Virus record (IMG/VR): IMGVR_UViG_3300028558_000027
Coordinates: 1-64,000 of that record
Length of the DNA: 64,000 bases
Reading direction: 5' to 3' (one strand)
From: a virus
This document shows positions 18,671 through 63,621 of this stretch, in pieces; positions within the stretch are counted from its first letter, which is position 1; every line of letters begins with the position of its first letter. Position numbers and translations under genes: made by a program. The notes under the pieces are model-generated. The model ran no database searches, was not told where the DNA came from, and saw only the letters and a list, made by a program, of their open reading frames with translations.

Positions 18671-18679
18671 CACAGATGC

Positions 18680-18692: not shown

Positions 18693-18694
18693 TC

Positions 18695-20188
18695 TCAAAC
18701 CTTGGTGGGCAGAGCACCAAGAGATCCGTGTTTCGCCCAAAAAGGCCTCTTCACAGGTTCCCAGTGCGTGCCTCCCGAGACGAAGCGCCCGAGAGCGTAA
18801 TTGTTGCCGTAGGTCCCGATGGTCTGGTCGAAGGGGCAGATGGCGGCGTAGCGAATACGATCGCCCTCAAGACGAGTCTTGCGAACCGCAACGTATGTCG
18901 CTCGCGTCGATTTCGACATTCCCTTGTTCTCCGTCGCTCCGTTGTCGGTCCACCGAATATCTTCGGCAGGTCCAAGAACAATTGCTGTCGTGCAGATCTT
19001 GACGAGATCAGACGATCCATGAAAATCCTCCAGCGTCGGCAGGAGCGGCTGATACTTTCCTTTCTCGGACTTTCGAAGGTGAGCGACGACAAGAATCGGC
19101 TTGCCGTAGTTCAAGGCGAGGTCTCGCAATTTTTTGACGGTCTTCTTCATTTCGGCGTTTTCGTTGTCGCTGTCGCCGGTGTCGATATAGTGAATGTGGT
19201 CAAGGATAATCAGGTCGGAGTCTTCCGCGACCTTCGAAATCTCTCTCTCCAACGTCTCGACGGTGAAGTCTCCGTGGGTGCGGTAATAGGTCCGCAGCCC
19301 TTCGAGACCTTTCATGTACCGATCAGCGTCGTCGCTGTACTGACCGAGGACGTATTGCAGGCGATTCTGCCTCCAAAGGCCGTACTCGATGTGCACGTTC
19401 CCTGGATGGCCCTGAGCAAAATAGGCGCGAGAAATCAGAGAGTATTTCATGCGCATCTCTATCTCGCGGTCCTCTGCTTCCAGGGCAAAGAAGGCCACCC
19501 GCTTTTGACCCTCAGCCACACGGCGAGCAATGTTCGTGACGAGCTGTGTCTTACCCGCTCCGCTCTTGCTACCGATGAGGATAACGTCTCGACGCATCAT
19601 GCAGCCCAGAGCGTCGTCTAGAAACTTGATGCCGTATGGAATCGTGTGCTTGGCGTCCTCAATCCGGTTTGCTTCCTCCGACAGGACGCGTATCGCACTG
19701 GACTCAAACCGGTTCGTAGTCTGGCCAATCTGCTCTATCCGATTGAGGTCAAGATCGAGCTTGCCGATGATTTGCTTCGAGAGCTGGATATCACCCCTCT
19801 TAAACGCCGGCTGCAGCTCGGTCATGATGCCGGACATAATCGTGCGGCCGGTCGCCCACAGCTTGAGATCCGAGGCTAGGCCGTCTTGCCCAAGCTTTGT
19901 CGCAAAATCCAAAGCCACCGACAGTGTCTGTTCGATGCGTTTTGACGTCTGGGTGTCCTCTCCCGCCGTCGCTGCCCCCTGAACCTCGTACGACGTGGGC
20001 TGGCGACTATGACGAACGGAGAAGACAGCTAGAGCATCCCAGAGCTTCTGATTGAAAGGATCAAGGAACCAGCTCGTCTTCACCCCCCAGACGTTGCACT
20101 GCGCAAGAAAATACTTGTCTTGGATCGCGTGACCGAGGACTGCCGCTTGCTTCTGTAGGGATTGCGTGATCGCTTCGAAGTTCTCCAA
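18695..20188 (-). CDS. dnaB: Replicative DNA helicase, DnaB type
   Basis: A hexameric fork helicase of 497 residues. The RecA-like domain carries Walker A IGSKSGAGKTQLV near residue 205, the AFFALEAEDREIEMR helix and Walker B DLIILDHIHYID, followed by LVVAHLRK (H4-like). The N-terminal region is helical as in DnaB. It begins at a TTG preceded by AAAGGA that overlaps the stop of the upstream gene, which suggests coupled translation with the loader-like protein. Confidence 0.9.
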   Translation of the reverse strand: MENFEAITQSLQKQAAVLGHAIQDKYFLAQCNVWGVKTSWFLDPFNQKLWDALAVFSVRHSRQPTSYEVQGAATAGEDTQTSKRIEQTLSVALDFATKLGQDGLASDLKLWATGRTIMSGIMTELQPAFKRGDIQLSKQIIGKLDLDLNRIEQIGQTTNRFESSAIRVLSEEANRIEDAKHTIPYGIKFLDDALGCMMRRDVILIGSKSGAGKTQLVTNIARRVAEGQKRVAFFALEAEDREIEMRMKYSLISRAYFAQGHPGNVHIEYGLWRQNRLQYVLGQYSDDADRYMKGLEGLRTYYRTHGDFTVETLEREISKVAEDSDLIILDHIHYIDTGDSDNENAEMKKTVKKLRDLALNYGKPILVVAHLRKSEKGKYQPLLPTLEDFHGSSDLVKICTTAIVLGPAEDIRWTDNGATENKGMSKSTRATYVAVRKTRLEGDRIRYAAICPFDQTIGTYGNNYALGRFVSGGTHWEPVKRPFWAKHGSLGALPTKV

Positions 20189-38100: not shown

Positions 38101-38833
38101 GAACGCCATGGATTTCGCCACGATGCTGGCCCATATGCGGGCGGCAGAGGCCGCGGGCCACCTTCCCAAGGGAACTAGCGCTGCTGCAACGCGCCACGGT
38201 TACGAAGACTCCATGATCCCGGGCATGGGCAACAAGGCTGCTTGGAACGACTTTCATGCTCAGAAGAAGCCTGGCGTCTATGTCGGTCTAGACGGTACAG
38301 ATTTCTCGGCGATCAATAACTCGCATGGCCACGCTGTAGGAGATCAGGCCATCAAGGCGTTTGGGGGCGCTGTCAAGGCGGCGGCGGAAGAGGCTGCGCC
38401 GGGAGCCTACAAGAGCTTTCGTCCAGGCGGCGACGAAATCAATGTGCACCTCCCCTCACATGAACACGCAGCTCGCTTCGCGCGTGCTCTGCATCAGAGA
38501 CTGGAGGCCATGCCGGCAATCGGCGGCGTCCACAAGCTGGCAATGGGTATGGGATTTGGGACCACACCTGAAGAGGCCGACAAGGCGCTCTACAAAGCAA
38601 AGGACCAGAAGTATCTGCCTGGTCAAGATCGTATCCCACAGCGAGAGCGCAAGAGAGCGTTCCCGATCGGTCAAGCGCCCAACATGGCCCATAGCCTGGT
38701 TCCGGGACACGAAGGCGCTATTCCTTTACCAAGCGCTAATTCAGCGGCGGTTCACCAGTTGAAGACACCGGAACCGAACGGAGCTATGCCTGAGGCTCCG
38801 AAGTTGCCGCACTTGCCTGCAGCGGCTGCTTAA
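35123..38833 (+). CDS. Large virion polyprotein: protease-like, HhH-GPD-like and GGDEF-like domains
   Basis: 1236 residues. Residues 1-190 (FASEACDTSGERIIIKG, YEHKGED, LLYGVVRLYDGAGHEGAKAL, YSIEGSTL) resemble XkdF-type prohead proteases. An Ala/Lys linker follows near residues 300-345. Residues 380-740 include LAPKTTRYMMGMIGGG and VPDTHMVRHLAGL near 596-625, the pattern of HhH-GPD DNA glycosylases (GxxKTA ... DTH). Residues 1049-1170 form a GGDEF-like domain: YVGLDGTDFSAINNSHGHAVGD, RPGGDEI near 1100, then MGFGTTPEEADKALYKAKDQK. Position before the scaffold and capsid genes fits the protease role. GTG at 35123 may be leaderless; an ATG at 35138 is an alternative. Confidence 0.8.
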   Translation: MSSTGMLLDGIFASEACDTSGERIIIKGLDITELEEGRGIANYEHKGEDKGNGEEIVGRIVYAKKIFGEDDCETERQLDCWKKTKLPLLYGVVRLYDGAGHEGAKALAAAIRDHVANDEKILLRYSIEGSTLNKEGNELRECVARRVALTWKPCNRSCDTGLLEDPNAPEGFEKQHVTRDPLSFLDSKKSEFEDPLYARLGGSVTTEGNPILDGTDLAKAYTAGSTASAPGSLVGTAALQREDSGLKKKKAAALAAIRDYSGLFDRDKFKTFAKMRMPEASDEFLDHFANLAEDYHVKRKQLAKKESPTVAPKAKVKKPAAKTPAKAASKPAKAAPPKEKQTVIAGTEPSEKATIRGVPIEPNPTVKNPVFDEDKGILHTSFGSFPLHRPEAEHFNKILSDPKVEQVHNQAMAGWVKVHKLLKEGRLPPEVVMHAALFANLSPNTPVPMQELMYGHLVDSMRHTGADAREPGFSDKTKADWVSRDGGKSYPENTREFFTNHPGIHLKNASKLTGRSAGEVGGFMLANNKMTNMDHYHENHHHLMELVNRNRENVRASANELMQHKYKAALWDNRRQTAISKDKPDIGPYAGPAVPGLAPKTTRYMMGMIGGGNVFVPDTHMVRHLAGLEQGKDPQTNDDVKNLMWDERNSHILDGIDRWYAKNHPAVQHMLQHPTWGKHFEKPEDAIFPAFWKHWIGIAPDERSRGMRNTNATEGTTHEPFWNAIDPFVEGEINKAEVDETLPQRTARIHAQYIRDYGEVPASMLYHAYLLPHLLDAAEQRAKRGSTLTFMAKSDALDISLRKAIAEFESHPTLLEPEMPSVHKVHMKIKGQHHPAGRYMIIGNNLRHLEDYHGLMDKFLPEGPVTEQTISRIHGLKMSPHLSIEEDPIPTQPEPDTNNAHPIVLPSAPPAPRKPSVFHYTRVGHDRPHTLEVQNGAYTLDGKRMSYPEVQTVVANVRSGAGKIRYKTSEVANQIKKMEDLFETYLGKAEEEENAMDFATMLAHMRAAEAAGHLPKGTSAAATRHGYEDSMIPGMGNKAAWNDFHAQKKPGVYVGLDGTDFSAINNSHGHAVGDQAIKAFGGAVKAAAEEAAPGAYKSFRPGGDEINVHLPSHEHAARFARALHQRLEAMPAIGGVHKLAMGMGFGTTPEEADKALYKAKDQKYLPGQDRIPQRERKRAFPIGQAPNMAHSLVPGHEGAIPLPSANSAAVHQLKTPEPNGAMPEAPKLPHLPAAAA

Positions 38834-46584: not shown

Positions 46585-49500
46585 ATGCCCAAAGCAGTCT
46601 CACTCGTCATGTGCTACAACGCCGCGGGAGAACTCCTGCTCGGCAAGCGCAAGGACACTGGCGAGTACACTCTTCCGGGCGGACACGCCAACGACGACGA
46701 GTCTCCCGAAGACTGCGCTCGTCGTGAGCTGATGGAGGAGGCCGGCATCGAGGCCCAGTCACTCAGTCCCCTCACAACGGTAGAGACGCCGCACGCGACA
46801 CTGTCCTTCTTTACAGCGTATTGCGGGAACGAGCCTGTGGTTCACTCAGAGAATGATCCTGACCAAGAGGTCGAGTCTGACGACTGGCAGTGGGTTTCCG
46901 TTAAGGACGGTCTCCCCAAGCGCTTCTACGATCATCTCGCGGGGCCCGACGATGACAAGAACATCGTTCGGCAGATCTTCGACATGGAGAAGAGCGAGGA
47001 GCCGCTTGTAAAAGCCCCTCCCTTCAATCCAGCCGATGTACCGGCTAATGAGAAACATCTGATTAGACGCTGGCAAGGCGCTCCTGGTCGTAAAGCCGAT
47101 CGAGACAAGCTTCCGCGAATGGAAGGAGCTGCGCGGCTTCGCGCCTTGAGCTGGATCTCAAAGAACACCCAGCATCGAATGAACCCGACTACGAACCAGC
47201 GTGAATACTTGTTGCATCGTGGGATCGGACCGAAGGAACGTAAGGCGATCGGCTCGGGCAATTCTGTCACACACGAGAAGTCCTCTTCCTGGACGCCCTT
47301 TGCGCATGTAGCAGAACGATTCGGTTCAAAAGATAGACATAGGGGAGGAACTCTTTCGGCGTGGGTTTCGGAGAACGCAATCCATACCGTGCCTCATCAG
47401 TTTGGCGATGTTTGGGGTGGTGGAGAAAGACAAGGACCGAATGCGTTTGCGAATGAAGGGGAGGTGGTAGTGGCTCCCCATACGTCAACTTTGGCCACAC
47501 CGCCTTCGAGTCCTCGTGTCGCCAAATCCGAAGACGAAGTCTCCACGCTCCTTCAACATCCGAACCCCGCCGAACGCCTCATGGCTCTCCGTCTCGATTC
47601 CGTGAATCCCGTCCATCTCCAGACAGCCTCTCTCGATCCCGACCCCACCGTTCACGAGGCAGCCATCGAGCATCCGTCCTTTGGTTCCGCCCAGGGCATG
47701 CACCTGCTTGAAGCGACCGCCGATGCTTCGGGGAAGCCTCCTACGGCGCAGCAGCTGGCGTTTCTGTCGCACGTTGACCGAGTGCAGCCTGGACACCTGG
47801 ACACAGCTCAGAGGCTCTCCCAGGGCCGTCTAGACGATACCCTGGCTAAGCATCCGGGAATGAATCCCGATCTCATTCGGCAGATGTTCCAGGACCCTCA
47901 CGTGTCTTTGAGACACCGTATGGACCTGCTCCGCCACCCGCAGGCTCCCGCGGACCTCCTCGGAGAGGTCGTGAAGGCCCAAATGCTGGTTCCTTCGGTG
48001 GATTCCTCGAAGCTCGCGGAGACGGCCTTGGCTCATCCTAAAATGTCGCACGACATTCTGGCCCAGCTAATCCACGCTGGCGCCGATCCGATGGTCCAGC
48101 CGCATCTCCACGTCCTCGCGATGCATGCCCTGCAGAACTCTTCGGTGCCGCATGATTTGATCGACGAGCTGTTCGATCAGGGAGCTTATCGGGCGACGGG
48201 TGGGCACGCAGCTCTGCGCTACTCGGCTGCTTCCGGTCCCTCCGCTACCCCCGAGCACATCGAGAGCGCCCTCAATGACCGCGATCCCTTGGTGTGGAAG
48301 AATCTTGGACAAGCCAAGAACCTCCAGCCACGTCACGTAGGAGTCATTCTCCAGCGCCTGATGGCGGAGAACCCCCGAGACCAAGCAGCGATGCAGGCGC
48401 TGTCGGGTTCCAAGGCCTTCAACATGGGCCATTTGAATCAGATGCTCGGCCAGCCGATAATGAAGAGCGAGCTGTCCAAGGCCATCAAGCCGGAGCATCT
48501 CTCATCGATCGCCAAGGCTGTCGACAAGAACGCCTATAAGGTGGTCGACCACACTCCGGATCTCACGGCCCACCCAGCTGTCAACGGGGCTCACGTGGAG
48601 GCCTATCGCCAGCAGGTTTTGAACTCTCCCAACGAGATCAAGAAGAAGACGGGCGGTGCGGCGAGTCGAAGCGCCGGCATAACGCGTAAGGTCGTGTTTC
48701 AAGCACAGGTGCCGGGTGAAGAGGGTGTATCAAAATTTATGGTGAAGCCGTATCACGAAAGGGTTATACGGCGCGTCAGCGGCTGGCAGAAGCACCCTCA
48801 TCAAGGGTGGGCAGAAATGACGAACCAAGCCCTTTATCATGCAGCTGGGATTGGGCATCTTCATCAGAATGTGTCAGTATCAGAACATGACATGGGGCCC
48901 GGTCATGAGAAAGAGCCAGCACTAGTGATTCATATCAAACCCGGTATGAAGAACCAAGCCGACGCAGGGACTCTTCCTGGTGATCCGTTTTCTCAGGAGT
49001 CTGGTCCCCATCAGGATGCGCGCAAGATAGCCGTCATGGATATGCTCTCAAATAATCTTGATCGACACTACGGCAATCTCCTTCAAGGACAGGACTCTAG
49101 TGGCAAGCCGACGCTGCTTGCCGTCGATCACTCCAGGTCTTTTCAGTACATCGCTCCCCACGATGGGTTGCGTTCTCCCAAGAAGCATGGCGAACTTGAG
49201 GATACGTTTGGATCTTATCATCAAGATTCTGCCGTCGACGGAGCTAGCCCGGCCATCCCGGAAATCCCTCACTCAGACTGGAAAAAACAGAGCAACAGAA
49301 TCAATTTGGCTTACGCCGCTCAAATGAAGACTCTCGAATCGTACCAACCGGTCATCAACGACTGGTGGAGTGAAGTGGGGCCAAAGGTCCGTCAAGAGTT
49401 TCATTCGAGACTAGACCAAATCAAAGACCCACAGATTCGTGCACACCTGAAACGTAATTTTGATGCACGAGCCGACTGGCTGGATGAGAGAGCAGAGCAT

Positions 49501-49617
49501 GGCATCGAGAACTACGGTGTAACCGATTGGCACAAGGATCCGATTCCCATGTTCCGTCCTGGTGAGCTGACGGACAAAGAGAAGGAAGAGAAGGAAGAGA
49601 AGGAGCGCTCCAAGTGA
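46585..49617 (+). CDS. Giant virion protein: Nudix, ADP-ribosyltransferase-like, helical repeats, kinase-like
   Basis: 1010 residues. The N-terminus is a complete Nudix domain: its box is G-H-x4-E-x7-R-E-L-M-E-E-A-G-I at about residues 33-55, able to hydrolyse nucleoside diphosphates linked to another group. Residues about 205-295 look like an ADP-ribosyltransferase: LLHRGIG (Arg), SSSWTPFAHVAERF (Ser motif) and NEGEVVV (Glu). Residues about 320-620 are short helical repeats (HPNPAERLMALRL, DPTVHEAAIEHPSF). The C-terminal 300 residues resemble HipA/PI3K-like kinases: FMVKP near 717, NNLDRHYGNLL near 820, LLAVDHSRSF near 846. Linkers carry the recurring KSE-type motif. None of this is needed for capsid building, so an injected effector is possible. 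Confidence 0.75.
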   Translation: MPKAVSLVMCYNAAGELLLGKRKDTGEYTLPGGHANDDESPEDCARRELMEEAGIEAQSLSPLTTVETPHATLSFFTAYCGNEPVVHSENDPDQEVESDDWQWVSVKDGLPKRFYDHLAGPDDDKNIVRQIFDMEKSEEPLVKAPPFNPADVPANEKHLIRRWQGAPGRKADRDKLPRMEGAARLRALSWISKNTQHRMNPTTNQREYLLHRGIGPKERKAIGSGNSVTHEKSSSWTPFAHVAERFGSKDRHRGGTLSAWVSENAIHTVPHQFGDVWGGGERQGPNAFANEGEVVVAPHTSTLATPPSSPRVAKSEDEVSTLLQHPNPAERLMALRLDSVNPVHLQTASLDPDPTVHEAAIEHPSFGSAQGMHLLEATADASGKPPTAQQLAFLSHVDRVQPGHLDTAQRLSQGRLDDTLAKHPGMNPDLIRQMFQDPHVSLRHRMDLLRHPQAPADLLGEVVKAQMLVPSVDSSKLAETALAHPKMSHDILAQLIHAGADPMVQPHLHVLAMHALQNSSVPHDLIDELFDQGAYRATGGHAALRYSAASGPSATPEHIESALNDRDPLVWKNLGQAKNLQPRHVGVILQRLMAENPRDQAAMQALSGSKAFNMGHLNQMLGQPIMKSELSKAIKPEHLSSIAKAVDKNAYKVVDHTPDLTAHPAVNGAHVEAYRQQVLNSPNEIKKKTGGAASRSAGITRKVVFQAQVPGEEGVSKFMVKPYHERVIRRVSGWQKHPHQGWAEMTNQALYHAAGIGHLHQNVSVSEHDMGPGHEKEPALVIHIKPGMKNQADAGTLPGDPFSQESGPHQDARKIAVMDMLSNNLDRHYGNLLQGQDSSGKPTLLAVDHSRSFQYIAPHDGLRSPKKHGELEDTFGSYHQDSAVDGASPAIPEIPHSDWKKQSNRINLAYAAQMKTLESYQPVINDWWSEVGPKVRQEFHSRLDQIKDPQIRAHLKRNFDARADWLDERAEHGIENYGVTDWHKDPIPMFRPGELTDKEKEEKEEKERSK

Positions 49618-50960
49618 AGGTCTACGTAACCAACATCCAGGACGACTCCGAGCGCCTCTTCGAAGGCACCGACGCTGAGATCGAGCGTCAGCTTCTCTTC
49701 GCCTACCCCTGGCTTCGTTCCAAAGATATCTCCGATCGTGGAGACCTTGAAGGCACGTTGGAGCATCTCGACACCACTCAGATGTATTCCGTGAGCACGG
49801 ACGACGGCTCCTCTCCGCTCAACAAATCAGAAGAAGGTCCACCCAATCCCGACTCCGAAAATGTTCGCGACCAGCTCGGATACAGGCCACACCTCGATGC
49901 AGCCTTTCGCGCGGCTCGATTCCTCTCTGGTCGTCCCGAGGTCTCTCCCGAGGCCGTTCGAGCCGCTCTCTGGGAGAACGACGGTGACCCGAGCGCGACG
50001 GCGCTGCTGGTCTACGGCCTTGAGGTCTCGCCGGAGAACCTGAAGGCCTTGAAGGCTGTTCAGGCGATGGAGGGGATGAAGAAGGCGGAGTCCGTGACTT
50101 TGCCGATCCCGGACATCGCCGCTGCCCACTCTGAAGGCAATGATGTCGCCGATGAGGTACGTCGGGCGTTCAACGACCACTTCGTATTCGAGGTCACGCT
50201 CTCGGGCAAGCACTCCGATGGGACACTGCTGGCTCACGATGAGAAGACCGGTCACGCCTGGTTGCTTAAGCCAGGTTCCGGAGGGCAGTCGTCCGCGGCT
50301 GGTGCGAATGAGGATCCGTCTACCCAAGCAGCTCGCGAGGCTCTCTTCTATCACGTGGCGAAGACTTGGGGCCTCTACGACTCGTTCCCACGCGCGGAGC
50401 TACTGCTCCTCAACGGCAAGCAGTTCGCTGCCCTGAGGTTCCTCGGCCAAGACTTCAAGACCCTTGGCAAGCTCGAAGATACCGACCCGAGCGCCGGCCG
50501 TCGCGTGTTCGCACCGTATCTAAATGACGGGCGACTGCATGAGTGGGCGGTCTTGTATTTTATTCTCGGGGAAACGGACGCGCACGCCCAGAATTGCCTT
50601 GTAAATGCCGACGGTCTCGTCCAGTTCATTGACCACGGCGCCGCGATCGCAGGGTCTGACTTCGACCCGGCCAACGACCACAAGTCGTTTGTACCTTGTT
50701 TTTTGCGTGCCTGGGGCTCCAAGAACTTCAACAATCTGCCGGTGGAGAAGAAATTGGCCTCGATGCCTACGGTAAGCAAGCAGGTTGGTACGCAGCTGAC
50801 TGCTTGGCTGAATTCCATCCACGCTGACGAGCTGGAAGCAATTCTTTATCGCTACGGGTCGAACCCGGCGGCGTGCCTGGACCGCCTGGCGAAGGTCAAG
50901 ACGGTCGCTGCAGAGATCGGCGTCGACGCCGGCATTAACCGGCTCTGGGTCACGGTCTAA
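49614..50960 (+). CDS. Virion protein with second HipA/PI3K-like kinase domain
   Basis: 448 residues, starting at a GTG that overlaps the previous stop (GTGA). Residues about 190-400 repeat the kinase pattern: HAWLLKPGSG near 215 (nucleotide-binding Lys), ILGETDAHAQNCLV near 316 (Asp-x-His-x2-Asn catalytic loop) and FIDHGAAIAG near 338 (metal-binding Asp). The N-terminal 150 residues hold LNKSEEG and MKKAESV, matching the KSE-type motif. It is probably a divergent relative of the last domain of the upstream protein. Confidence 0.7.
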   Translation: MKVYVTNIQDDSERLFEGTDAEIERQLLFAYPWLRSKDISDRGDLEGTLEHLDTTQMYSVSTDDGSSPLNKSEEGPPNPDSENVRDQLGYRPHLDAAFRAARFLSGRPEVSPEAVRAALWENDGDPSATALLVYGLEVSPENLKALKAVQAMEGMKKAESVTLPIPDIAAAHSEGNDVADEVRRAFNDHFVFEVTLSGKHSDGTLLAHDEKTGHAWLLKPGSGGQSSAAGANEDPSTQAAREALFYHVAKTWGLYDSFPRAELLLLNGKQFAALRFLGQDFKTLGKLEDTDPSAGRRVFAPYLNDGRLHEWAVLYFILGETDAHAQNCLVNADGLVQFIDHGAAIAGSDFDPANDHKSFVPCFLRAWGSKNFNNLPVEKKLASMPTVSKQVGTQLTAWLNSIHADELEAILYRYGSNPAACLDRLAKVKTVAAEIGVDAGINRLWVTV

Positions 50961-53784: not shown

Positions 53785-54088
53785 AATCGTGCGCCCAGAT
53801 GGCACCGTCATCGAGATCGAAGGAACGCAGCAAGAGGTCGCGGACCTTCTGCAGAAGCTTGCTCCTGCGCCTTTCACGTGGCCATCATCGGTGACAACCA
53901 CCCCGGTTCCGTGGGCCGAGATCAAGTGGCCAGCCATCACCTACGGACCGTGCCAGCACCGTTATCCCGCGGTGTGGATGTCGGTATCGCCTCCGCAGTG
54001 CGAGATCTGCCATGAGCCGGCGGCTGCGGTTAGCCCTCTCTGGTCTTCGAGCGGCTATTTCTACTATAACAACGTAGCGTCGACCTAA
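53774..54088 (+). CDS. Hypothetical late protein, 104 aa
   Basis: Starts at a GTG overlapping the previous gene by 11 bases. Short N-terminal unit (IVRPDGTVIEIEGTQQEVADLLQKL), then a Pro/Trp-rich piece and a Cys pair (CEICHEP). Unrecognised. It ends in a convergent overlap with the lytic transglycosylase gene. Confidence 0.6.
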   Translation: MKSKIVRPDGTVIEIEGTQQEVADLLQKLAPAPFTWPSSVTTTPVPWAEIKWPAITYGPCQHRYPAVWMSVSPPQCEICHEPAAAVSPLWSSSGYFYYNNVAST

Positions 54089-54579
54089 GACGATGCTGTG
54101 AGCTTGCTCGTCATCAGACGACGCAGCAACGACTGACCAAGCTTCAGATCTTCGGCGACACCACGGCTGTACTTCGATGGGCGGCAACCGTTCGCGGGTC
54201 GATTGTATTTTGTCAGCCAATGCCAAGAGCACTTCTGTTGTTTCTGAGCCATGTAGCTCACGCCGAGGTAAATGTTCAACGAGATGTTTGAGAGCTGCGC
54301 GTTGGTCATCTTGGCGTAGGCTCCTTGTACGGCACCTCCGCGCTTGACCTGCATCAGACCTACTTCACCCTTGGTCCCGATCGCGCGCTTGTTGTAGTTG
54401 CTCTCGTGCCAGATGTCGGCCGCGACCGTGTCTTTGGGAATGCCCGTCCCGACTGTCGCGTTCTCGATGGCGTCAGCGATCTCCACTGCTTCTGCATTGT
54501 TCTCGCAGGACTCCATCGGCATCCCGCGTGGGTCCAGTAGAGACAGGACGCAGGCGAAGAGGACCTCGGCGCCGGTCAT
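54085..54579 (-). CDS. Lytic transglycosylase-like muramidase
   Basis: 164 residues. IWHESNYNKRAIGTKGEVGLMQVKRGG is the SLT-type lysozyme core with catalytic Glu (residue about 57) and the GLMQV motif, followed by NISLNIYLGVSYM. It would cut peptidoglycan, either at lysis or as a virion-linked enzyme. The ATG at 54579 overlaps the ligase stop (ATGA). The first 20 residues are hydrophobic but not a clear signal peptide. Lying with early-type genes, it need not be the main endolysin. Confidence 0.75.
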   Translation of the reverse strand: MTGAEVLFACVLSLLDPRGMPMESCENNAEAVEIADAIENATVGTGIPKDTVAADIWHESNYNKRAIGTKGEVGLMQVKRGGAVQGAYAKMTNAQLSNISLNIYLGVSYMAQKQQKCSWHWLTKYNRPANGCRPSKYSRGVAEDLKLGQSLLRRLMTSKLTASS

Positions 54580-55790
54580 TCGTAGTCCCGAATCGCCTTG
54601 CCGATCGGCAAGTAGAGAGAGCCATCGGCCGTCCAGCGCTTGAAATTCACGGTCAGCTTCTTGCCCCGCCAAAGCTCGGGCTTATCCATCAGCTCGCGAC
54701 GCCGCGCGTAGGTGGCCTTGAGGCGCACGTCGCAGGTCTTGCCGTTGGGCAACTCGACGGTGAAAGTGGCGACGGTGCCTGCATCCTTCCCTCGTCCGTC
54801 ATTGACGCCGAGGATCTTGAACTCAGCGTCGATAAACTCCTTCATCTTCTGCAGGTGCTTCGAGCGTTTGTCGGACTCGTACGTGCCATGGACGTTGCGT
54901 GCCATGCCGCCCTCGTAGCCCCGGTCGAGAGCCTCTTGGTACGAGGTCTTGAGGTGCTCGAAAGTCGAGATCTTATGCGTGTGGACGCGCTTGATTGGCA
55001 TCGACTGGTCGATGTTGACGAATAGTAAATCGACGTACGTGTTGCGGAAGTCGAAGGCGTCCTCCATCGTCCCGTGAGTCTTTCCGCCCGGTAGCTCGTC
55101 CGGACCCCATTGGGGACAGTCGTAGACGTGATACTGCGCGTTCAGGTACTCGCCATCGCCGTCGGGCTCATCGGTGCGCAGGATCGACATCAGGTCTTCG
55201 AAGCGGTCCTTGTAGTCGTGGTTGTACAATTCGCCGTCGATGACTATGCGGTAGTGGCCGGCGAAGGCCTTCTCCAGCGCTGCCACAATGTGCGGCACGA
55301 CGTTGATGCGCTTCCGGGTGCGGCTCCACAGCGTGCACTTGCCGTCTTCGATGATGGCAATGCAGCGCATGCCGTCGAGCTTGGGCTGGAAGTAGCACGG
55401 GAAAACGATCGACTTAACGAGCAGGTCGTCCTTGGGGTACGATTTATTCGGCGCCAGCATTGGCGCCAACCCACCTTCGATGACAGCGTCCACCTCGCCT
55501 GCCTCAGCGGCTTCGACGGAGTCGACATAGCCCTTCTTGAGCTGCTTCGTCCACCGCGCCTTGGCCTCCTTCTCGGCCTGCTCCAGCGGAGTGGTGGCGT
55601 TCTTCTTGCCCGGGTTTTTCCCCTCCTTGATCGTGTCGGATGTGGTCTGGAGCTTCCCGCCGACCTGTCCGTGTTCGGTGACGAGTACGCCCCACACCGT
55701 CGCCGGACCAAGGGCCGAGTCGACGCCGATCGTCCACTGTTGGATCGCGCCTGTCTGGGTTTTCTGAAAAAGTCGGGGAAGGGTCTTCAT
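54576..55790 (-). CDS. ATP-dependent DNA ligase with N-terminal WGR-like domain
   Basis: 404 residues. The N-terminal 100 resemble a WGR-type DNA-binding region (IQQWTIGVD, VWG...GQVGGKLQTT). The catalytic part has motif I PKLDGMRC with the nucleotidyl Lys near residue 139, then VIDGELY (III), EGGMARN (IV) and KHLQKMKEF (V), and an OB-fold C-terminus. It seals nicks during replication and repair. The ribosome site is AAAGGA. It is in one unit with the small membrane gene and the transglycosylase. Confidence 0.9.
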   Translation of the reverse strand: MKTLPRLFQKTQTGAIQQWTIGVDSALGPATVWGVLVTEHGQVGGKLQTTSDTIKEGKNPGKKNATTPLEQAEKEAKARWTKQLKKGYVDSVEAAEAGEVDAVIEGGLAPMLAPNKSYPKDDLLVKSIVFPCYFQPKLDGMRCIAIIEDGKCTLWSRTRKRINVVPHIVAALEKAFAGHYRIVIDGELYNHDYKDRFEDLMSILRTDEPDGDGEYLNAQYHVYDCPQWGPDELPGGKTHGTMEDAFDFRNTYVDLLFVNIDQSMPIKRVHTHKISTFEHLKTSYQEALDRGYEGGMARNVHGTYESDKRSKHLQKMKEFIDAEFKILGVNDGRGKDAGTVATFTVELPNGKTCDVRLKATYARRRELMDKPELWRGKKLTVNFKRWTADGSLYLPIGKAIRDYE

Positions 55791-55798
55791 GTGTTCCT

Positions 55799-56005
55799 TT
55801 ACGAAGTCAGTCCGAAAAGAGTCAGAGCGAGCATCGCCACGACGATTCCGACGGAGAGTGCTTGCGGGATGGTGTTGATGAAGAAGTTCTGTCCAGGGTG
55901 CTGGTTCTTCGTGTCACGTGCCCAGTGGCTACGGGTGTAGAGCACCGACCCAGTCACTGACCGAAGGGGCAGGTGGGGGCACTTCTTATGGCGACAGAGC
56001 TTCAT
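55799..56005 (-). CDS. Small membrane protein, 68 aa
   Basis: A basic, Cys/His-containing N-terminus (MKLCRHKKCPH) and a C-terminal hydrophobic stretch (ALSVGIVVAMLALTLFGL) make a tail-anchored-like protein. The ATG at 56005 is one base from the predicted +1, so the message is nearly leaderless. Function unknown. Confidence 0.65.
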   Translation of the reverse strand: MKLCRHKKCPHLPLRSVTGSVLYTRSHWARDTKNQHPGQNFFINTIPQALSVGIVVAMLALTLFGLTS

Positions 56006-56012
56006 GGGATTG

Positions 56013-56041
56013 ATAGTAGCAAAACTAACGAGCCGACTCAA
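56013..56041 (-). promoter_or_regulatory. Host-type sigma-70 promoter (early) for the ligase unit
   Basis: TTGAGT (56036-56041), a 17-base spacer and TACTAT (56013-56018) with an extended TG. Its -10 region TTTTGCTACTAT is close to motif A, which may show how the two classes are related. Confidence 0.65.
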
Positions 56042-56044
56042 CCG

Positions 56045-56827
56045 CTATCGGAGGCGGTTGTCTCCGTAGCTGTCACGCATCACGCCAGCTACTTTCGCCA
56101 AGAGATCTCCGACCGTCAGGTCGTTGGAGAGAGTACGGGAGTAGAAGTGGGGTGGAATCGAGTCGATCTCCGTCTCACTCTTGTGCCCGTAGAAGCCGGC
56201 TTTCATAAGGTCTTGACGCGTCAGACGAAGAACAACTCCTCCTTCACTTCTGACGTTCAAAATCTCGTTGCGAAATCGAATGTCGGTGATGATCGAGTAG
56301 TCGAAGGCCGCGCCTTCGTCCTTGAATAGGCCGCGAGTCCTGGTGTAGTTCCAACCGCCTTTGAGGAGGGTCTTGCAGGTGAAGATCGCGTCGAGGTTCC
56401 ACATGTCCATCGAGATGTGACGGCCCCACTCGGTCCCCAGAGGTTGGAGCGCCGATCTAGGGGAAAGTTCCTCCCCCAAATCGTGAACCCACGACATCAG
56501 TCTGGTGAGGGCGACATCTTGGCGATGTATGGGAACAACGGATTCAACAAAAGCTTCTCCGAGAGAGAGATTGCTGTCCTCGTGACGCTCGTGGAGACGC
56601 CTGACGGCCTCGACTCGGTTGATCTTACATACGGTGCTGCGCAGCTCGCTGGGGCCCCACAGCTGGTCTTCGTTCCAATCTAGGAGAGCAGCTAGAAAGC
56701 GCTTCATTCGATCGGCCTGACCTACGCACACACCGTTATAGGCTTGGGCCAAAAATGTTCCGACCGTATCCTTCCCGCTACCTGCTTTGCCGGCTATACC
56801 GATGATGGGGGTCGAGGTTACGATCAT
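56045..56827 (-). CDS. Deoxynucleoside monophosphate kinase (T4 gp1-like)
   Basis: 260 residues with an N-terminal P-loop GIAGKAGSGKDTVG, a LID/NMP-binding layout (ADRMKRFLAALL) and DYSIITDIRFRNE, the pattern of phage dNMP kinases that phosphorylate dNMPs to dNDPs. The frame is open further upstream, but that part runs through the terminator and motif A, so the ATG at 56827 is used; it coincides with the predicted +1. Confidence 0.82.
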   Translation of the reverse strand: MIVTSTPIIGIAGKAGSGKDTVGTFLAQAYNGVCVGQADRMKRFLAALLDWNEDQLWGPSELRSTVCKINRVEAVRRLHERHEDSNLSLGEAFVESVVPIHRQDVALTRLMSWVHDLGEELSPRSALQPLGTEWGRHISMDMWNLDAIFTCKTLLKGGWNYTRTRGLFKDEGAAFDYSIITDIRFRNEILNVRSEGGVVLRLTRQDLMKAGFYGHKSETEIDSIPPHFYSRTLSNDLTVGDLLAKVAGVMRDSYGDNRLR

Positions 56828-56834
56828 GCAACGT

Positions 56835-56847
56835 AAGTAGCGAAACT
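56835..56847 (-). promoter_or_regulatory. Motif A promoter for the dNMP kinase gene
   Basis: AGTTTCGCTACTT directly downstream of a terminator. Predicted +1 is the A of the ATG at 56827. Confidence 0.65.
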
Positions 56848-56856
56848 CCATCAAAC

Positions 56857-56896
56857 GCAAAAGGCCCGACCGCCAAAAAGGCAAGCCGGGCCCTTA
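56857..56896 (-). terminator. Terminator after the 120-aa regulator gene
   Basis: On the minus strand, GGCCCG/CGGGCC and GCC/GGC arms form one interrupted hairpin followed by TTTTGCGTTT. As at the two plus-strand terminators, a motif A promoter follows immediately. Confidence 0.75.
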
Positions 56897-56912
56897 TGGA
56901 AAGCGAACTGAT

Positions 56913-57275
56913 TTAGCGTCGGTTGATCATCACTCCGTTGTCTGAGGCGCGGACCACGGCGAGATTCGTGGCCCCTGCTTTCCGCAAAGTCTCGAATGTG
57001 CGGACCAGGAGCATCTCGGGGGTTTCTCCGTTGAAGAAGTAAATCACCTGAGGCAGCTGCTCCTGGCGCTTCCCTGGTCTTCCTGCGCTCACGGTCTTCT
57101 TGGGTGCTCCCCGCACCTCGTGCACGAGCTGGTACAGGCGGTTGGTTCGCAGAGGACTGCCGTACACCTCTTCGAGCTTTCGGTTGATTTTTGCAGCAGA
57201 GAGTTCGGGCTCGTCCTTTAGCAGCTTGGCGGCGTACCGCTCCTTCTCTAGCGACTCTTCGTTCGAGATTTTCAT
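56913..57275 (-). CDS. Putative small DNA-binding regulator, 120 aa
   Basis: Same plan as the protein at 44769-45155. An N-terminal helix-turn-helix-like part (AAKLLKDEPELSAAKINRKLEEVYGSPLRTNRLYQLVHEVRG) is followed by a basic linker (GRPGKRQE) and a C-terminal unit LLVRTFETLRKAGATNLAVV. It has an AAGGAT ribosome site and an extended -10 (TGCTACTGT, -10 at 57320-57325) without a good -35. A transcriptional regulator is likely but not proven. Confidence 0.6.
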   Translation of the reverse strand: MKISNEESLEKERYAAKLLKDEPELSAAKINRKLEEVYGSPLRTNRLYQLVHEVRGAPKKTVSAGRPGKRQEQLPQVIYFFNGETPEMLLVRTFETLRKAGATNLAVVRASDNGVMINRR

Positions 57276-57369: not shown

Positions 57370-57375
57370 GGGGAG

Positions 57376-59769
57376 GTGATTCTTTACCTATCTTGGGACG
57401 GCGACGGCATAGGAAAACAGGCCGGCCTGGCGCGTTTGAACGACGACCTGGCCGAGGTGCGGCGTGTATCGAACGCCATCGACGCCGGCAACGCCTTGTG
57501 GGTGGCCCTGGCTGAGCGCTCTGGCACCCACTCGATCGAGGCCGGTGGAGACGAGGGAGCGATCGAGCTGCCTGTTGATAAGCTCCCAGAAGTCCCTGGA
57601 ATCGCTAGTCAATATCGCGATGCGGTCGGCGCTACGTGTTCCGTCGGTATCGGCACCAAGCTCAGTGAATCGTCCAAAGCCCTGCTGGTGGCCAAGCTTC
57701 GAGGAAAGGATCGTATCGTCCTCTGGGAGCCTGAGATGCAGTCGGAAATCGACGCCGCCAACGCCCATCCCAAGACCGAAGAGGAGAAACTCGGGGAAGA
57801 GTACCTCGGCAAGCACGGAGGTAACCAAGGCACCCACGCTGGGTTTGCTGGCCACACGACGCCGGGCGAGCCTCACATCGATAAACCCACCTCGGGCCAG
57901 AAAGATCACTCCGCTGCTTCTGTCACAGAACATGTGATCCAGAACGCGAATGATGCTGCCGCGAATGCGCCCCAGCCCCAGCAGCCAGACGACGATTTCG
58001 AATCACAGCTGCACTCAGCTGCCCAGGATCAGGAAAAGCAAGACCGAGACTCGGTCATCGAAGACGACGCAGGCCTCGATCAGCTGAAGAAGCAGCTAGT
58101 GCAAACATTGGCGGGTGTGAAGGCACAAATGCCGATCCTCTCGCAGATGAAAGCCGCAGCCCCGGAGGCCTACCAAACGATCATGAGCCTGGTACAGGGG
58201 CTGATCGCTCTCGGTCGTCAGGTGATGAAGGACCAGCCTGCGGTTTCGGACGAAGATCCGCAGCACATCGATACCGAGGTGAAGAAGAGCGATGACCGAG
58301 ACGACTGCGCTGACTGCGGTGCGTTCCTCGGCGTAAACATCGACTGTCTGACATGCGAAGCGTACGCCGACAAGCACTGGGGGTTGAAGAAGTCTGTCGC
58401 CGGCATCCAGGCAGGCCCCAAGACGTCGGCTGGTGCTTTTGACTATTCACACATTCTCCCGGACGCAGCTAAACAGGCCGGCATCACGATGCACCTGACA
58501 CATGCTCCGGCTAGCCATCCGTCTGGAGAGCACCTCCAGGTCAATTTACACCACAACGGCCAGCCGATCGGCAACACCACCGGCTACGTGCGCTCTGCGA
58601 AGGATTCGAAGGGAATCGAGCCGCATTCGGAGCTGGAGTCGGCTTATCGGGGCGGAGGTCTTGGCCAGGCGATGCACGAAGCGACCTACGCCCACGCGAA
58701 GAATGTGCTGGGGATCGGTCACGTCCAGTTCGGACCTCACTCTGAAGACGCACATAAAATGCTTCAAAGCTTGGCTCGTAAGCACGGCTTCGAGTACCAG
58801 GCTCATAGCGATCCGAAGATGGCTCGATATGGCTACGGATTCACTCCTGGGTCGTACGCCATCAAGAGCGAGGCAGAGGAACCAGAGGAGAGTGGTCCCG
58901 GGTTTGGGTCGGTGTTTATCCGCGAAGACCTCTCCAAGAGCGTCGCCCAAATTCAACCTGGGAAGAGAAGTCTCACCCCGGGTCGTGTGTCGTTCGACTA
59001 CTCGCACGTTCTCTCTCCTGAACACAAGGCGCTTGGTCTCCAGATGCACGTAACACACGTAGCGCCTTCCGGTCCGGTAGGAGAACACACCATCACCACG
59101 CTACAGCACCACGAAGGCGGCAAGCACAAGGTGGTCGGCAGTGTGACCGCCTATATCGACGGCAAAAAGGGCGACAAGAGTATTGAGCCGCATTCGATGC
59201 TGCTTCCTAAATTCCAAGGTAAAGGACTCGGTCAATCGATGTACGAGGCTTCGTACGCACACGCGAAGAACGCGCTCGGGATTTCACGTGTTGAAGGCGG
59301 CATGCACTCAGACCAGGCTCACTCCCTGCATCAGCGACTGGCGGCGAAGCACGGATTTGAGTATTCCTCTACGACTCCGGCCGATCTTGCGGGTACGGAC
59401 TATCCGCACAGCCCCTACTCGTACGCAATCAAGGACGAGATGGCTCCGAACATCGACGATTGCGACATCGTTGGTCCCGGCAAGGGCGTTACGTTCCACC
59501 GCGGCGAGATCGTGAAGGACGAGATGGACGGATCGCCGCCGTCGGACGATGGAGAGCTGGACAAGGCTGGTGGCGGTGGAGGTAGAGAAGCCGGAAGGCA
59601 ACATCTCAAGCTGCCGGTGGGATCGATGGTCGATCAGAAAATCAAGACGACAAGAGCCGATGGTCACGTTGGCTGGACGTCAGTTGCCAGCGGTATGATT
59701 CAAGGGCAGCAAGGCGATCCTCTGGGAAATCCTCACGCGGTGAGTAGCAGAAAGCCCGGCGCGAAATAA
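57376..59769 (+). CDS. Virion polyprotein: cyclase-like palm domain and two GNAT-like domains
   Basis: 797 residues. Residues 1-125 look like a nucleotidyl-cyclase/Cas10-type palm (GGDEF or minimal CRISPR polymerase family): YLSWDGDGIGK with DGD at 8-10, EAGGDEGA with GGDE at 57-60, then ATCSVGIG, LLVAKLRGKDRIV. A linker with a Cys cluster (CADC, CLTC near 313-325) follows. Two repeats at about 348-498 and 538-688 share FDYSH, MH(L/V)THxA, IEPHS, (Y/F)xGxGLGQxMxEAxYAHAKN, HGFEY and SYAIK; the GxGLGQ loop is the acetyl-CoA motif of GNAT folds. KSE/KDE-type sites lie between the domains. Two metal-binding Asp pairs are intact, so cyclase or polymerase activity is possible. Confidence 0.72.
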   Translation: MILYLSWDGDGIGKQAGLARLNDDLAEVRRVSNAIDAGNALWVALAERSGTHSIEAGGDEGAIELPVDKLPEVPGIASQYRDAVGATCSVGIGTKLSESSKALLVAKLRGKDRIVLWEPEMQSEIDAANAHPKTEEEKLGEEYLGKHGGNQGTHAGFAGHTTPGEPHIDKPTSGQKDHSAASVTEHVIQNANDAAANAPQPQQPDDDFESQLHSAAQDQEKQDRDSVIEDDAGLDQLKKQLVQTLAGVKAQMPILSQMKAAAPEAYQTIMSLVQGLIALGRQVMKDQPAVSDEDPQHIDTEVKKSDDRDDCADCGAFLGVNIDCLTCEAYADKHWGLKKSVAGIQAGPKTSAGAFDYSHILPDAAKQAGITMHLTHAPASHPSGEHLQVNLHHNGQPIGNTTGYVRSAKDSKGIEPHSELESAYRGGGLGQAMHEATYAHAKNVLGIGHVQFGPHSEDAHKMLQSLARKHGFEYQAHSDPKMARYGYGFTPGSYAIKSEAEEPEESGPGFGSVFIREDLSKSVAQIQPGKRSLTPGRVSFDYSHVLSPEHKALGLQMHVTHVAPSGPVGEHTITTLQHHEGGKHKVVGSVTAYIDGKKGDKSIEPHSMLLPKFQGKGLGQSMYEASYAHAKNALGISRVEGGMHSDQAHSLHQRLAAKHGFEYSSTTPADLAGTDYPHSPYSYAIKDEMAPNIDDCDIVGPGKGVTFHRGEIVKDEMDGSPPSDDGELDKAGGGGGREAGRQHLKLPVGSMVDQKIKTTRADGHVGWTSVASGMIQGQQGDPLGNPHAVSSRKPGAK

Positions 59770-59794: not shown

Positions 59795-60637
59795 TTGGAC
59801 GTATCGGCGTTGGCCGACTTGACCAACCTCAAGGAGATCGCGCAGAAAGAGGTTCAGAAAGCAGCCGCCGATCTCGCTGCGATGGCCAAGGCGAAGATTC
59901 ACGAGTTGGCGAATCAGAAGCTCCACGCTCGTCGTCAGCTGTACGTTGACCACCTCTCGTACTCGAAGATGTCGGCTGACGTCTACGTCGTAACCCTGGA
60001 GGCTAAGGCGCGTTGGATCGAGGACGGTCAACAGGAACACTCCATGATCGACGACCTGCTTGCGTCACCGAAGGCCAAGACGGCGCGAGACGGTTCAAAA
60101 TATTTAGTCGTCCCCTTTGGCCACGGTCCTGGGAAGGGGTCAGGAAGCAACAGCCCACCTCAGAACGACATCGTAGCCACTCTAAAGAAGGAGTTAAAAA
60201 AGCGTGGTGTTGGGTTTGGGAAAATCGAGAGGAATCCAGACGGAACTCCGAAGACGGGGCGCCTGCACTCATTCGACATCAGCAAGGACCCGTTGAAGAG
60301 CGGGCAGGGGCCTGGTCAGGGTTGGGGACCTGTCGGACAGGTTCGTCAAGGACCGAATCAACGTCAGGTAGTTGGGGGTGGGCCTGGTGGAGGAGGTACT
60401 CCTTTCCTTCATGGGATTTCGATCTACCAGACGCCGGACGACAAGGCCAAGAGCGGAGTGAAGCGCTCGATTACCACCTACCGAATCGTCTCTTCCAAGC
60501 ACGCAAGCCAGGGGCGATGGATGCATCCGGGCCTGGAGGCTGTGAACCTTATGGACCTTGGTTTCGAATGGGCTTTGCAGGAGTGGGAAACAAAGCTCGG
60601 TCCGGAGATCGTCGCGAAGATTACTTCGTCGGTCTAA
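59795..60637 (+). CDS. Putative neck or tail component, 280 aa
   Basis: A helical N-terminus, a Gly/Pro-rich middle and SSKHASQGRWMHPGLEAVNLMDLGFEWALQEW, a C-terminal pattern seen in phage neck or tail proteins. The frame has TTG at 59795, but an in-frame ATT at 59780 stands six bases after an AAGGGG ribosome site, a much better distance than for the TTG. The real start may be the rare ATT, giving IFNINLDVSAL. Confidence 0.6.
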   Translation: MDVSALADLTNLKEIAQKEVQKAAADLAAMAKAKIHELANQKLHARRQLYVDHLSYSKMSADVYVVTLEAKARWIEDGQQEHSMIDDLLASPKAKTARDGSKYLVVPFGHGPGKGSGSNSPPQNDIVATLKKELKKRGVGFGKIERNPDGTPKTGRLHSFDISKDPLKSGQGPGQGWGPVGQVRQGPNQRQVVGGGPGGGGTPFLHGISIYQTPDDKAKSGVKRSITTYRIVSSKHASQGRWMHPGLEAVNLMDLGFEWALQEWETKLGPEIVAKITSSV

Positions 60638-61617
60638 CGGCCGACCACAGTGAACGTCGGGTCGATCGTTGCTCGGTACTGAGTCCAGCCGCGCAGGTTT
60701 CCTGACCATATCCGCGTTGTTGAGCACGAAGGAATGTCGTGGTCCTGGTGACGACACTTGTTCTTCGGCATCGCCTGCGCCACGTGTTCGAAAGGGCTCC
60801 AGTGACCAGCTTTCGACAGGCGATTGGCAAGCGTGACATCCTCTTCCATGTCACGCTTGCCTTCATGTGTGAGGTACGAGACTCGGGCACAGCGACCCGC
60901 TGATACTTTGCAAAGGTACTCGCAGAGCGCTTTGTTGTCTGCTTTTCCATCGACCAGAGCTTGACCAGTGTTCCCGATTGGTTCTGCAAGAACTTCGTCG
61001 TCGAAGTCGATAAGCGGGAGATGCCATTCTCCTGCCACAAGGCACCGCGGCAAGGTACTGTCGTACTGGCGCTTCATCTCCTTGGCGACCCAGCCGATCT
61101 CGGGCTGAGCATCAGGGTGGCAGCGGAGTCGGAACCAGTTGTCGAACTCGGTCGCCGTCAGAATAACCTCGATGAACATCCACGGCTCCAGAATGCGGTT
61201 CGCGATTTGCTTGTGGAAGCCGACCTTGGTCATCAGCCAAGCCATCAGAAGGGCTCCCCAACGGGCCGAAAGCCACAGGCGCTTCACGAGCGCTAGTCGC
61301 CAGCCCGTGAGCTGCTCACGTGACTGCATCCCCGCCTGGTTCTTGCCCCAAAACACCGGGACCGCTGGCTCTCGGCGTATCTGCTCCATCAGCTTCTTGG
61401 TCGGGATCGCACGAGAGGAAGCGCTGTTCTTGCTAAAGAGTCTGTGAGTTAAAAGCTCCGCATGGACGAACCGAGGGTAGCGAAGCAGCCACGTCGTCAG
61501 ACGAACCCTGTTCGGACCGACAGAGTCAGTCAGGATTCTGACCCGGTATCCACGCGGTCCAGGCTCAACGAGAGTGCTCGTTGCGACCCCTCCCTCGTTG
61601 TAGACCGTCTCCATCAC
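60634..61617 (-). CDS. thyX: Flavin-dependent thymidylate synthase
   Basis: Makes dTMP from dUMP using FAD and methylene-tetrahydrofolate. The signature THRLFSKNSASSRAIP (family pattern RHRxxSxNxxSxR) is near residue 57. The remaining parts, AGEWHLPL, SAGRCARVSYLTHEG and HWSPFEHVAQA, are typical of ThyX. It starts at GTG/ATG overlapping the previous stop. With the reductase and dNMP kinase it completes a dNTP supply set. Its end overlaps the tail gene convergently by four bases. Confidence 0.92.
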   Translation of the reverse strand: MMETVYNEGGVATSTLVEPGPRGYRVRILTDSVGPNRVRLTTWLLRYPRFVHAELLTHRLFSKNSASSRAIPTKKLMEQIRREPAVPVFWGKNQAGMQSREQLTGWRLALVKRLWLSARWGALLMAWLMTKVGFHKQIANRILEPWMFIEVILTATEFDNWFRLRCHPDAQPEIGWVAKEMKRQYDSTLPRCLVAGEWHLPLIDFDDEVLAEPIGNTGQALVDGKADNKALCEYLCKVSAGRCARVSYLTHEGKRDMEEDVTLANRLSKAGHWSPFEHVAQAMPKNKCRHQDHDIPSCSTTRIWSGNLRGWTQYRATIDPTFTVVGR

Positions 61618-61959: not shown

Positions 61960-62964
61960 GTGCTGAATTTGCAGACGACCAAGGCCCTCGGGATTCACCA
62001 GTCGGATTTAATTATTCGGACTGCGATCATCGCCGGCATCGCGGACATTCGTAGAAACCCCTGGCTGCTCGATTACTGCTTTGCGTCAATATCGCAAGAC
62101 ACCCTCACCAAGGACGTCTACGGCGCCAAGAGCGCTGAGCAGGCAAAGAAATATTTTCTGTCATCGAATATCCCGGTTTTTATGGACACCAGGGTCGACT
62201 CCGCGAAGCTCCCCGCGATCAGTATCCACCTCCAAAGCTCTGACGAGGCCGAAAACACCACTGCAGACATAAATTACGACGTGTCTGAAGCGACTGAGGC
62301 GCCCTGGACACCTCTTGCGGGCCCCTTCGCCCCCTCGGCTTACGTTGCGTCAACGGGGAAGATGACAATCCCCGCGGCCTCTATCGGAGACCTTGTGCTC
62401 GCCCCCGGCATGTTCGTGATCGACTCGGTGGGGCTGGCGCACGAGATTCAAGATGTACTGGACGACGGCACAGTGCTGGTTCAGCCGGGTACAACGTCGG
62501 ATTTTCGTCGTTCGTACATCAAGGGGTCGCAGCCCCGCCTGATTACCTCGTTGGAGTCGGTGACGTTCAAAGAGACGTACACGCTCGGGGTCCATGTTCA
62601 GGGGGAGGCGAGCTACCTCACTTATTTGCACTCGATTTTGGTCTTCATCCTCCTGCGGTACAAAGAAACTCTGCTGGAGGCCCGTGGATTCGAGCGTTCG
62701 GTGATTTCTTCGTCAGACGTTCGTCCTGATACTTCGACGGAAAAGGAGCTGGCATGGGTTCGGTATATGTCGATCACCGGGTACGTGAAGCAAATCTGGC
62801 CCAAGGCTGTCAGTGAGAGAATTCAGTCAACGGTCACTCAGCCGACCATGGGATTTGCCGGAACACAGGGGCCGGGAGTTACCGACGCTGGTAAATCCGG
62901 CACCGACGACGACTCGTGGCTTGCTGACCAAGACGCCTTGGCGGCAGGATTCCTTACCCGCTAA
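61960..62964 (+). CDS. Putative tail-associated structural protein, 334 aa
   Basis: Begins at GTG (MLNLQTTKALGI). A central beta-rich insert (about 110-190, with TIPAASIGDLVLAPGMFVID) sits between helical parts, and the C-terminus is Gly/Asp-rich. Late region and size suit a tail terminator or sheath-related protein, but no motif confirms it. Confidence 0.6.
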   Translation: MLNLQTTKALGIHQSDLIIRTAIIAGIADIRRNPWLLDYCFASISQDTLTKDVYGAKSAEQAKKYFLSSNIPVFMDTRVDSAKLPAISIHLQSSDEAENTTADINYDVSEATEAPWTPLAGPFAPSAYVASTGKMTIPAASIGDLVLAPGMFVIDSVGLAHEIQDVLDDGTVLVQPGTTSDFRRSYIKGSQPRLITSLESVTFKETYTLGVHVQGEASYLTYLHSILVFILLRYKETLLEARGFERSVISSSDVRPDTSTEKELAWVRYMSITGYVKQIWPKAVSERIQSTVTQPTMGFAGTQGPGVTDAGKSGTDDDSWLADQDALAAGFLTR

Positions 62965-62979: not shown

Positions 62980-63621
62980 GTGCTACGAGTAGCGCCTTTA
63001 CGAAAAGACGAGGATACAGCCCCGCAGGGGAACCTCTATCGTACTCCGCCTGCTCCCGTAGCCGATCATCCGTTGTTCTCAGGTTCCAACTCGGTTGGTC
63101 TCATGACTGCCGAGGCTCCGATGTATCCGGCGAAGGACAGCGGTGGCAACAAAGGCCTAGAGCAAAAGCTAACCACTATGGGTTTGAGGTTTGAGCCCAC
63201 CACGGGCTCTTACGGCGGCGGTCTAGAGCACAGCTACATCATTCATGGTCCGACCAGGGAGCAGATGTACCAGCTGGGTCATGAGCACGGTCAGCATGCC
63301 GTTATATACAGTCAGAACGGCAATCACGAATTACTGATGACCCACGGGCCCGATGCGGGCAAATACCATCCGTCCCTGCCCGTTATTCGTTACTCGAAAG
63401 ACGCTCCGGAAGACTATTACACCGCTCTTCCTGGTCGCGGTCACGTCACGCTTCATTTTGCTCAGGACAAGCTTCTAGACTCGCCTGTCAAGCACACGAT
63501 GCCAGCGCACGCTGGCGGACCTGCAGGGCATCCGGCGCAGCAACAGCTGCAAGCGATGAAGCACGAGATCGCCACCGGCCTACTGGCGATCCTCCGCAAG
63601 GCGCAGAAGGAGCTGAGCTAA
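62980..63621 (+). CDS. Hypothetical late protein, 213 aa
   Basis: A central domain (LEHSYIIHGPTREQMYQLGHEHGQHAVIY, LLMTHGPDAGKY) is flanked by Pro/Gly-rich ends. The same LEH...G...QL...HG...Y layout recurs in the next gene, so the two look like neighbouring paralogues. Function unknown; a DUF3293-like fold is a weak guess. Confidence 0.65.
   Translation: MLRVAPLRKDEDTAPQGNLYRTPPAPVADHPLFSGSNSVGLMTAEAPMYPAKDSGGNKGLEQKLTTMGLRFEPTTGSYGGGLEHSYIIHGPTREQMYQLGHEHGQHAVIYSQNGNHELLMTHGPDAGKYHPSLPVIRYSKDAPEDYYTALPGRGHVTLHFAQDKLLDSPVKHTMPAHAGGPAGHPAQQQLQAMKHEIATGLLAILRKAQKELS

Follow-up and report, generated by a model that had tools for sequence, protein, structure and literature searches.

The N-terminus of a 797-aa protein encoded in the neck gene cluster of a phage is a genuine mCpol domain (minimal CRISPR polymerase), and the use of this domain in phages is real, conserved and apparently undescribed. 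In the available text of PMC12657218 and PMC12657230, mCpol is described as a rare anti-phage defense enzyme of bacteria and archaea whose 2',3'-c-di-AMP product keeps a membrane effector silent. Among the phages sampled here, the domain belongs to a structural gene cluster across a whole lineage and forms a single clade in which the active site was repeatedly lost. Our leading interpretation, held tentatively and at somewhat short of an even chance, is that this neck-cluster cargo protein would be an active cyclic-dinucleotide synthase directed against host nucleotide signaling, probably immunity, that also has a non-catalytic role.

An mCpol palm at the N-terminus

The stretch analyzed here (the window) comprises 64,000 nucleotides of a 67,419-base virus record, and the gene occupies 57376..59769 on its plus strand, encoding an mCpol domain, a linker, a helical bundle, two GNAT-like repeats and a C-terminal motif. 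A sequence-only reading had singled out this ORF as a palm-domain protein on the basis of short motifs, all of which we recovered: DGD at aa 8-10 (57397..57405), GGDE at aa 57-60 (57544..57555), SVGIG at aa 89-93 and AKLRGK at aa 106-111. The start codon is a GTG inside a Shine-Dalgarno-like GGGGAGGTGA (window 57370-57379). This stretch raises the question of start-codon use or of a local sequence error: no canonical start lies between the GTG and the DGD.

The palm domain spans aa 4-115 (57385..57720, plus strand) and matches the Pfam mCpol family PF18182 at 1.6e-10 (41.8 bits versus a cut-off of 26.4), while the NCBIfam mCpol model NF033576 scores 32.7 bits, under its own cut-off of 40, and the Pfam search gave no match to PF00990 (GGDEF) in this ORF. 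PADLOC returned a weak CARF_HEPN_mCpol match only, and PHROGs held no family covering the mCpol part. An AlphaFold2 model built from 11 phage sequences (pLDDT 93.3, pTM 0.84) has a palm fold in which D8 ends strand 1 and GGDE lies in the adjacent hairpin of the next two strands; the non-palm fold that had been named beforehand as a refutation did not appear. Because a plain sequence search of the PDB with the window domain matched the Panoptes enzyme OptS only weakly (E 0.1), we relied on structure comparison. Foldseek placed OptS above every GGDEF structure (rank 1 with E 1.2e-8 and TM to target 0.81; OptS at PDB ranks 1-5 with 9pd0/9mnr at the top, GGDEF from rank 6, and a further OptS, 9nwn, at rank 7), in agreement with the earlier suggestion of a phage relative of mCpol.

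It is extremely improbable that the domain is instead a standard GGDEF diguanylate cyclase, or a piece of Cas10, misread as mCpol. As such a misreading would predict, PF18182 also matches bacterial proteins of Cas10 size, and Cas10 palm2 is weakly matched by some phage members. However, a profile of the phage members finds full-length bacterial mCpols at 1e-9 to 1e-21 and Cas10s at only 1e-2 to 1e-7, and the Pfam search and full-length model of the window ORF contain a single palm and none of the remaining Cas10 parts. A tree of 38 domains places all 23 phage sequences on one side of a branch with support of 99/98, sets Cas10 apart by another branch (100/98) and leaves the six bacterial mCpols outside the phage group; bacterial sampling in this tree is small and may alter it if widened, and its 'bacterial mCpol' and 'Cas10' rows were assigned by protein length and context. 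The phage mCpols are thus one clade, apart from Cas10 and from the bacterial mCpols sampled, and the Foldseek ranking, profile scores and tree rule out GGDEF or Cas10 identity for the window domain.

The record nevertheless encodes a GGDEF domain elsewhere. A whole-record domain search found one mCpol and one GGDEF, bearing out the earlier claim of two palm proteins of different types in one phage. The GGDEF (PF00990, 1.4e-10) covers aa 1040-1163 at the C-terminus of ORF 35123-38833 (38240..38611, plus strand), where it is fused to a prohead-protease-region protein. Myxococcus phage Mx1 has a 'nucleotide cyclase' annotated as a separate gene.

A modular cargo protein of the neck cluster

Phages were gathered by domain search and, independently, by the neighboring gp10-like neck gene. 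Besides the window, the domain-based searches yielded ten records of uncultured viruses, but they partly used GGDE-like patterns and so favor intact copies; the gp10-like gene was used as a probe because pattern-based searches for the domain are circular. In the gp10-like-probe sample, wherever the sequence upstream of the probe gene is available, mCpol adjoins that gene or lies a short way upstream, the single exception being L044/L045, two contigs with identical sequence there. Removal of near-identical contigs left 24 distinct phages, 23 of which carry an mCpol-fold domain in the neck gene cluster, usually immediately upstream of the gp10-like gene; in L044/L045 the neck genes are present but no mCpol domain is detectable. 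A profile made solely from catalytically intact members recovers the degenerate copies at no worse than 1e-24.

The usual order is head-cluster genes, mCpol gene, gp10-like gene, terminator-like gene and sheath, and in two phages (L008 and L012) the mCpol domain is in the cluster but at another spot. Downstream of the mCpol gene, the window encodes an HK97-gp10-like neck/tail-completion protein (59795..60637, plus strand; phrog_16819, with the gp10 match itself weak) and a tail-terminator-like protein (61960..62964, plus strand; weak SP10_terminator match), and a tail sheath follows further downstream in relatives (a weak match in L002, annotated in Mx1). The suggested location among virion genes can accordingly be narrowed to the neck gene cluster. 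Genes on the minus strand also lie within the cluster (window 54085-57275 and 60634-61617); such interrupters include genes for a DNA ligase and a deoxynucleotide monophosphate kinase; inspection by eye alone adds a transglycosylase-like ORF and suggests that the ORF at 60634-61617 is ThyX-like. Further enzyme domains of the head-neck cluster are found at 46585-49617 (Nudix and a weak PI3/PI4-kinase-like match) and 49614-50960, whose relatives in Mx1 and L010 match PI3_PI4_kinase.

Among cultured phages, tblastn found Mx1 only, and only through its GNATs; the mCpol of Mx1, whose active site is dead, was found by position and Pfam. This orthologue, WNM70340.1 (OR576727), is annotated as a hypothetical protein, immediately precedes the gp10-like gene, and has the mCpol fold, the helical bundle and the C-terminal segment, with no GNATs. 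A bacterial genome scan with A1 found no copies, though prophages may still carry some, and a scan from L013 found nothing beyond L013 itself. Among the openly accessible papers searched, we found none on a phage-encoded or structural-cluster mCpol.

Most members share three constant parts, the mCpol domain, a conserved helical bundle at about aa 207-284 (QMPILSQMKAAAPEAYQTIMSLVQGLIALGRQV; 57994..58227, plus strand), identified by full-length alignment and helical in the model, and a C-terminal segment, LPVGSxxDxKIKxxxADG...SSRxPGAK (59578..59766, plus strand). The last is common to the window, L002, L005, L006, L010 and Mx1, whether or not they carry the same middle cargo. In the window the middle holds the tandem GNAT-like repeats that had been noted from their GLGQ motifs, and PF00583 indeed matches two stretches in the C-terminal half of the ORF (2.3e-8). 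Repeat 1 (about aa 350-490; 58423..58845, plus strand) is delimited by PF00583 and by alignment with L005 and shows a/b elements in the low-confidence full-length model. Repeat 2 (about aa 535-690; 58978..59445, plus strand) includes the best PF00583 stretch (583-655) and also matches PF13508 and PF13302. Both retain the acetyl-CoA motif R/Q-x-x-G-x-G/A, as RGGGLG within YRGGGLGQ and QGKGLG within FQGKGLGQ. At pLDDT 55, the AlphaFold model of the whole protein is of low quality and serves for domain borders, not arrangement.

The middle region varies among relatives: it is empty in L002, holds two GNATs in L005 as in the window, and holds DUF5661 in L006 and L007, while in L008 mCpol is fused with Nudix and DUF3293. 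Conversely, homologues of the window GNATs are found in other multidomain proteins, in Mx1 in a virion-region protein with Nudix and ART-PolyVal domains, and in L012 in a different protein with Nudix. The window gene is therefore a modular cargo protein of the neck cluster in which other enzyme domains are inserted or swapped. The Mx1 protein carrying GNAT, ART-PolyVal and Nudix is 1479 aa long (14593-19032). DUF3293, fused to mCpol in L008, forms a separate protein in the window (62980-63621), and in Mx1 a relative of this protein lies inside a protein of 559 aa that precedes the sheath.

Retention and loss of the catalytic site

The catalytic residues of KpOptS are Asp6 and Asp57, according to the available text of PMC12657218. 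In our alignment D8 of the window corresponds to Asp6, D59 to Asp57 and S32 to Ser30, and the catalytic motifs of the window are intact. OptS Asn34, which contacts adenine, is replaced by Asp36, so that the product may differ from 2',3'-c-di-AMP. An alignment of 11 phage homologues, in which the members other than the window share 29-59% identity with it, has 17 invariant columns out of 140, and these include all ten motif positions (D8, G9, D10, G13, G57, G58, D59, E60, K107 and G110), the last two belonging to a basic/Gly palm motif, KLRG, at aa 107-110 (57694..57705, plus strand). The corresponding hypergeometric P of 3e-11 is descriptive only, because the alignment had already been seen when the positions were chosen and GGDE patterns entered into two of the homologue searches. 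For the close pair L002/L025, both with intact motifs, dN/dS of the mCpol domain is 0.09, and the domain is under purifying selection in this pair; dN/dS of the dead clade is saturated.

Both D8 and D59 are kept in 15 of the 23 distinct phages, 14 of which have the full DGD/GGDE/K set, and the other eight (Mx1, L021, L024, L026, L027, L028, L030 and L037) keep the domain and lack the first catalytic Asp, a split that is a count of copies found and not an unbiased frequency. Mx1 and L027 lack both catalytic Asp residues, with the Mx1 site reduced to SID, LGAV and QINGGD. A tree of the gp10-like neighbor, which excludes the trait itself, calls for four or more changes in catalytic state; many of its branches are weak and the counts do not separate gain from loss, with regain of an Asp site unlikely. 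Asp10 is retained in nearly all copies lacking Asp8 (Mx1, which is L009, L021, L026, L027, L028, L030 and L037), and its role may be in folding or ligand binding rather than catalysis.

Loss of the first Asp in eight phages indicates that catalysis is not needed everywhere and argues against a purely catalytic 'producer' reading; the domain probably does more than catalysis. The dead copies require either a second role or tolerance of loss, and a structural explanation is the main rival to our interpretation: the mCpol fold would be chiefly a neck or assembly domain that attaches or dimerizes at the head-tail connector, with catalysis ancestral and optional. We regard this as possible but on balance unlikely. 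It would account for the domain persisting at the same locus without its first catalytic Asp, for the repeated changes of state, and for the preservation in dead copies of D10 and not of catalytic D8. Against it, the 15 phages that keep both Asp residues include many at only 29-59% identity to the window, the domain sits elsewhere in the cluster in L008 and L012, and the neck genes of L044/L045 occur without a detectable mCpol domain, which implies that assembly does not need it.

Candidate roles and comparison with known systems

The sequence-only reading had offered producer, decoy and antagonist as candidate roles. Under our leading interpretation, of an active synthase with a second role, the window mCpol is a predicted active and probably dimeric nucleotidyl cyclase that would make a cyclic dinucleotide. 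Its position in the neck cluster suggests that the protein is expressed late, is probably in or on the virion, and may enter the host with the DNA. The product would then act on host nucleotide-signal immunity, for example by silencing a Panoptes-type effector or by saturating CARF/SAVED/Cap sensors, while the GNATs are putative modifiers of host proteins. A second, non-catalytic function, such as dimerization, virion attachment or ligand binding, could keep the domain in place where the active site is lost. A more specific version, which we consider doubtful, turns the host's guard around: the phage-carried mCpol would make the inhibitory cyclic dinucleotide at DNA entry, so that Panoptes-type effectors stay off even when the phage depletes host signals, and the inactive versions would be structural or ligand-binding pseudo-enzymes.

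Searches for immune partners bear on both versions. An Acb2/Tad1-type sponge gene (PF24729) is present in two of 14 records, only one of which has mCpol, a distribution that shows no co-occurrence supporting an anti-Panoptes link. The two genes lie in the L010 record (G007:C1:40008-40175), where mCpol is intact, and in the L044 record (G824:C1:74605-74733), which has no mCpol. The Cap15-like effector family PF18153 had no match in 12 records, with a control equally silent, and no 2TM, CARF or SAVED effector was recognized among the neighbors scanned for domains. The phage mCpol suggests a Panoptes link only through its domain family, and the sponge and effector searches lent this no support.

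The domain family shared with OptS also invites the idea that the gene is a captured defense gene used for superinfection exclusion, as the phage's own Panoptes-like guard against rival phages. We judge this improbable, given the same effector searches (including Cap15 with its silent control) and a locus made up of late structural genes rather than a defense operon. A signaling enzyme with no immune role is rather unlikely as well, if less so. Such an enzyme would work with the GGDEF protein to reset host cyclic-dinucleotide physiology (motility, envelope or development). The GGDEF protein does co-occur in 11 of the 24 phages, with an unbroken GGDE signature in the window and Mx1, and an Asp at the base-contact position in place of the OptS Asn leaves room for a GTP-derived product. 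However, GGDEF was not detected in L003 and L012, which are long records with intact mCpol, indicating that the two palms need not work together, and the mCpols known from the available text of PMC12657218 belong to conflict systems.

An active phage mCpol would amount to a cyclic-nucleotide synthase delivered by the phage, and would thereby mirror the phage sponges and phosphodiesterases that remove such signals. If it is structural, it would be a clear case of a signaling-polymerase fold recruited as a virion-associated module. Mx1 is a cultured member, and the virion question is thus testable now.

Panoptes OptS (PDB 9MNR, 9PD0 and 9NWN) is the closest comparison, sharing the palm fold, the single small domain and the DGD. 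OptS is encoded in the optSE operon, whereas the window mCpol is in a phage neck gene, belongs to a separate clade and is fused to the helical bundle, GNATs and C-terminal segment; GGDE is whole in the window and only the Asp is present in KpOptS, and it is among phage mCpols that catalytic residues are repeatedly lost. Palm 2 of Cas10 (Csm1/Cmr2) is a related palm with DGD and GGDD, but the window mCpol lacks a second palm and the HD and Zn parts. GGDEF diguanylate cyclases share the palm fold and the GG[DE]E hairpin, and their structures rank under OptS. Mx1 WNM70340.1 has the same locus, mCpol fold, bundle and C-terminal segment, and differs in its dead active site and lack of GNATs. Packaged multidomain phage proteins with GNAT, ART, Nudix and GGDEF domains are established in the accessible text of Iyer et al., 2017 (PMC5512222), and like these late, polyvalent proteins the window protein, itself probably late, combines enzymatic domains of unrelated kinds in a single chain; it differs in that mCpol does not appear as a packaged or structural-cluster domain in that text or in the literature searched.
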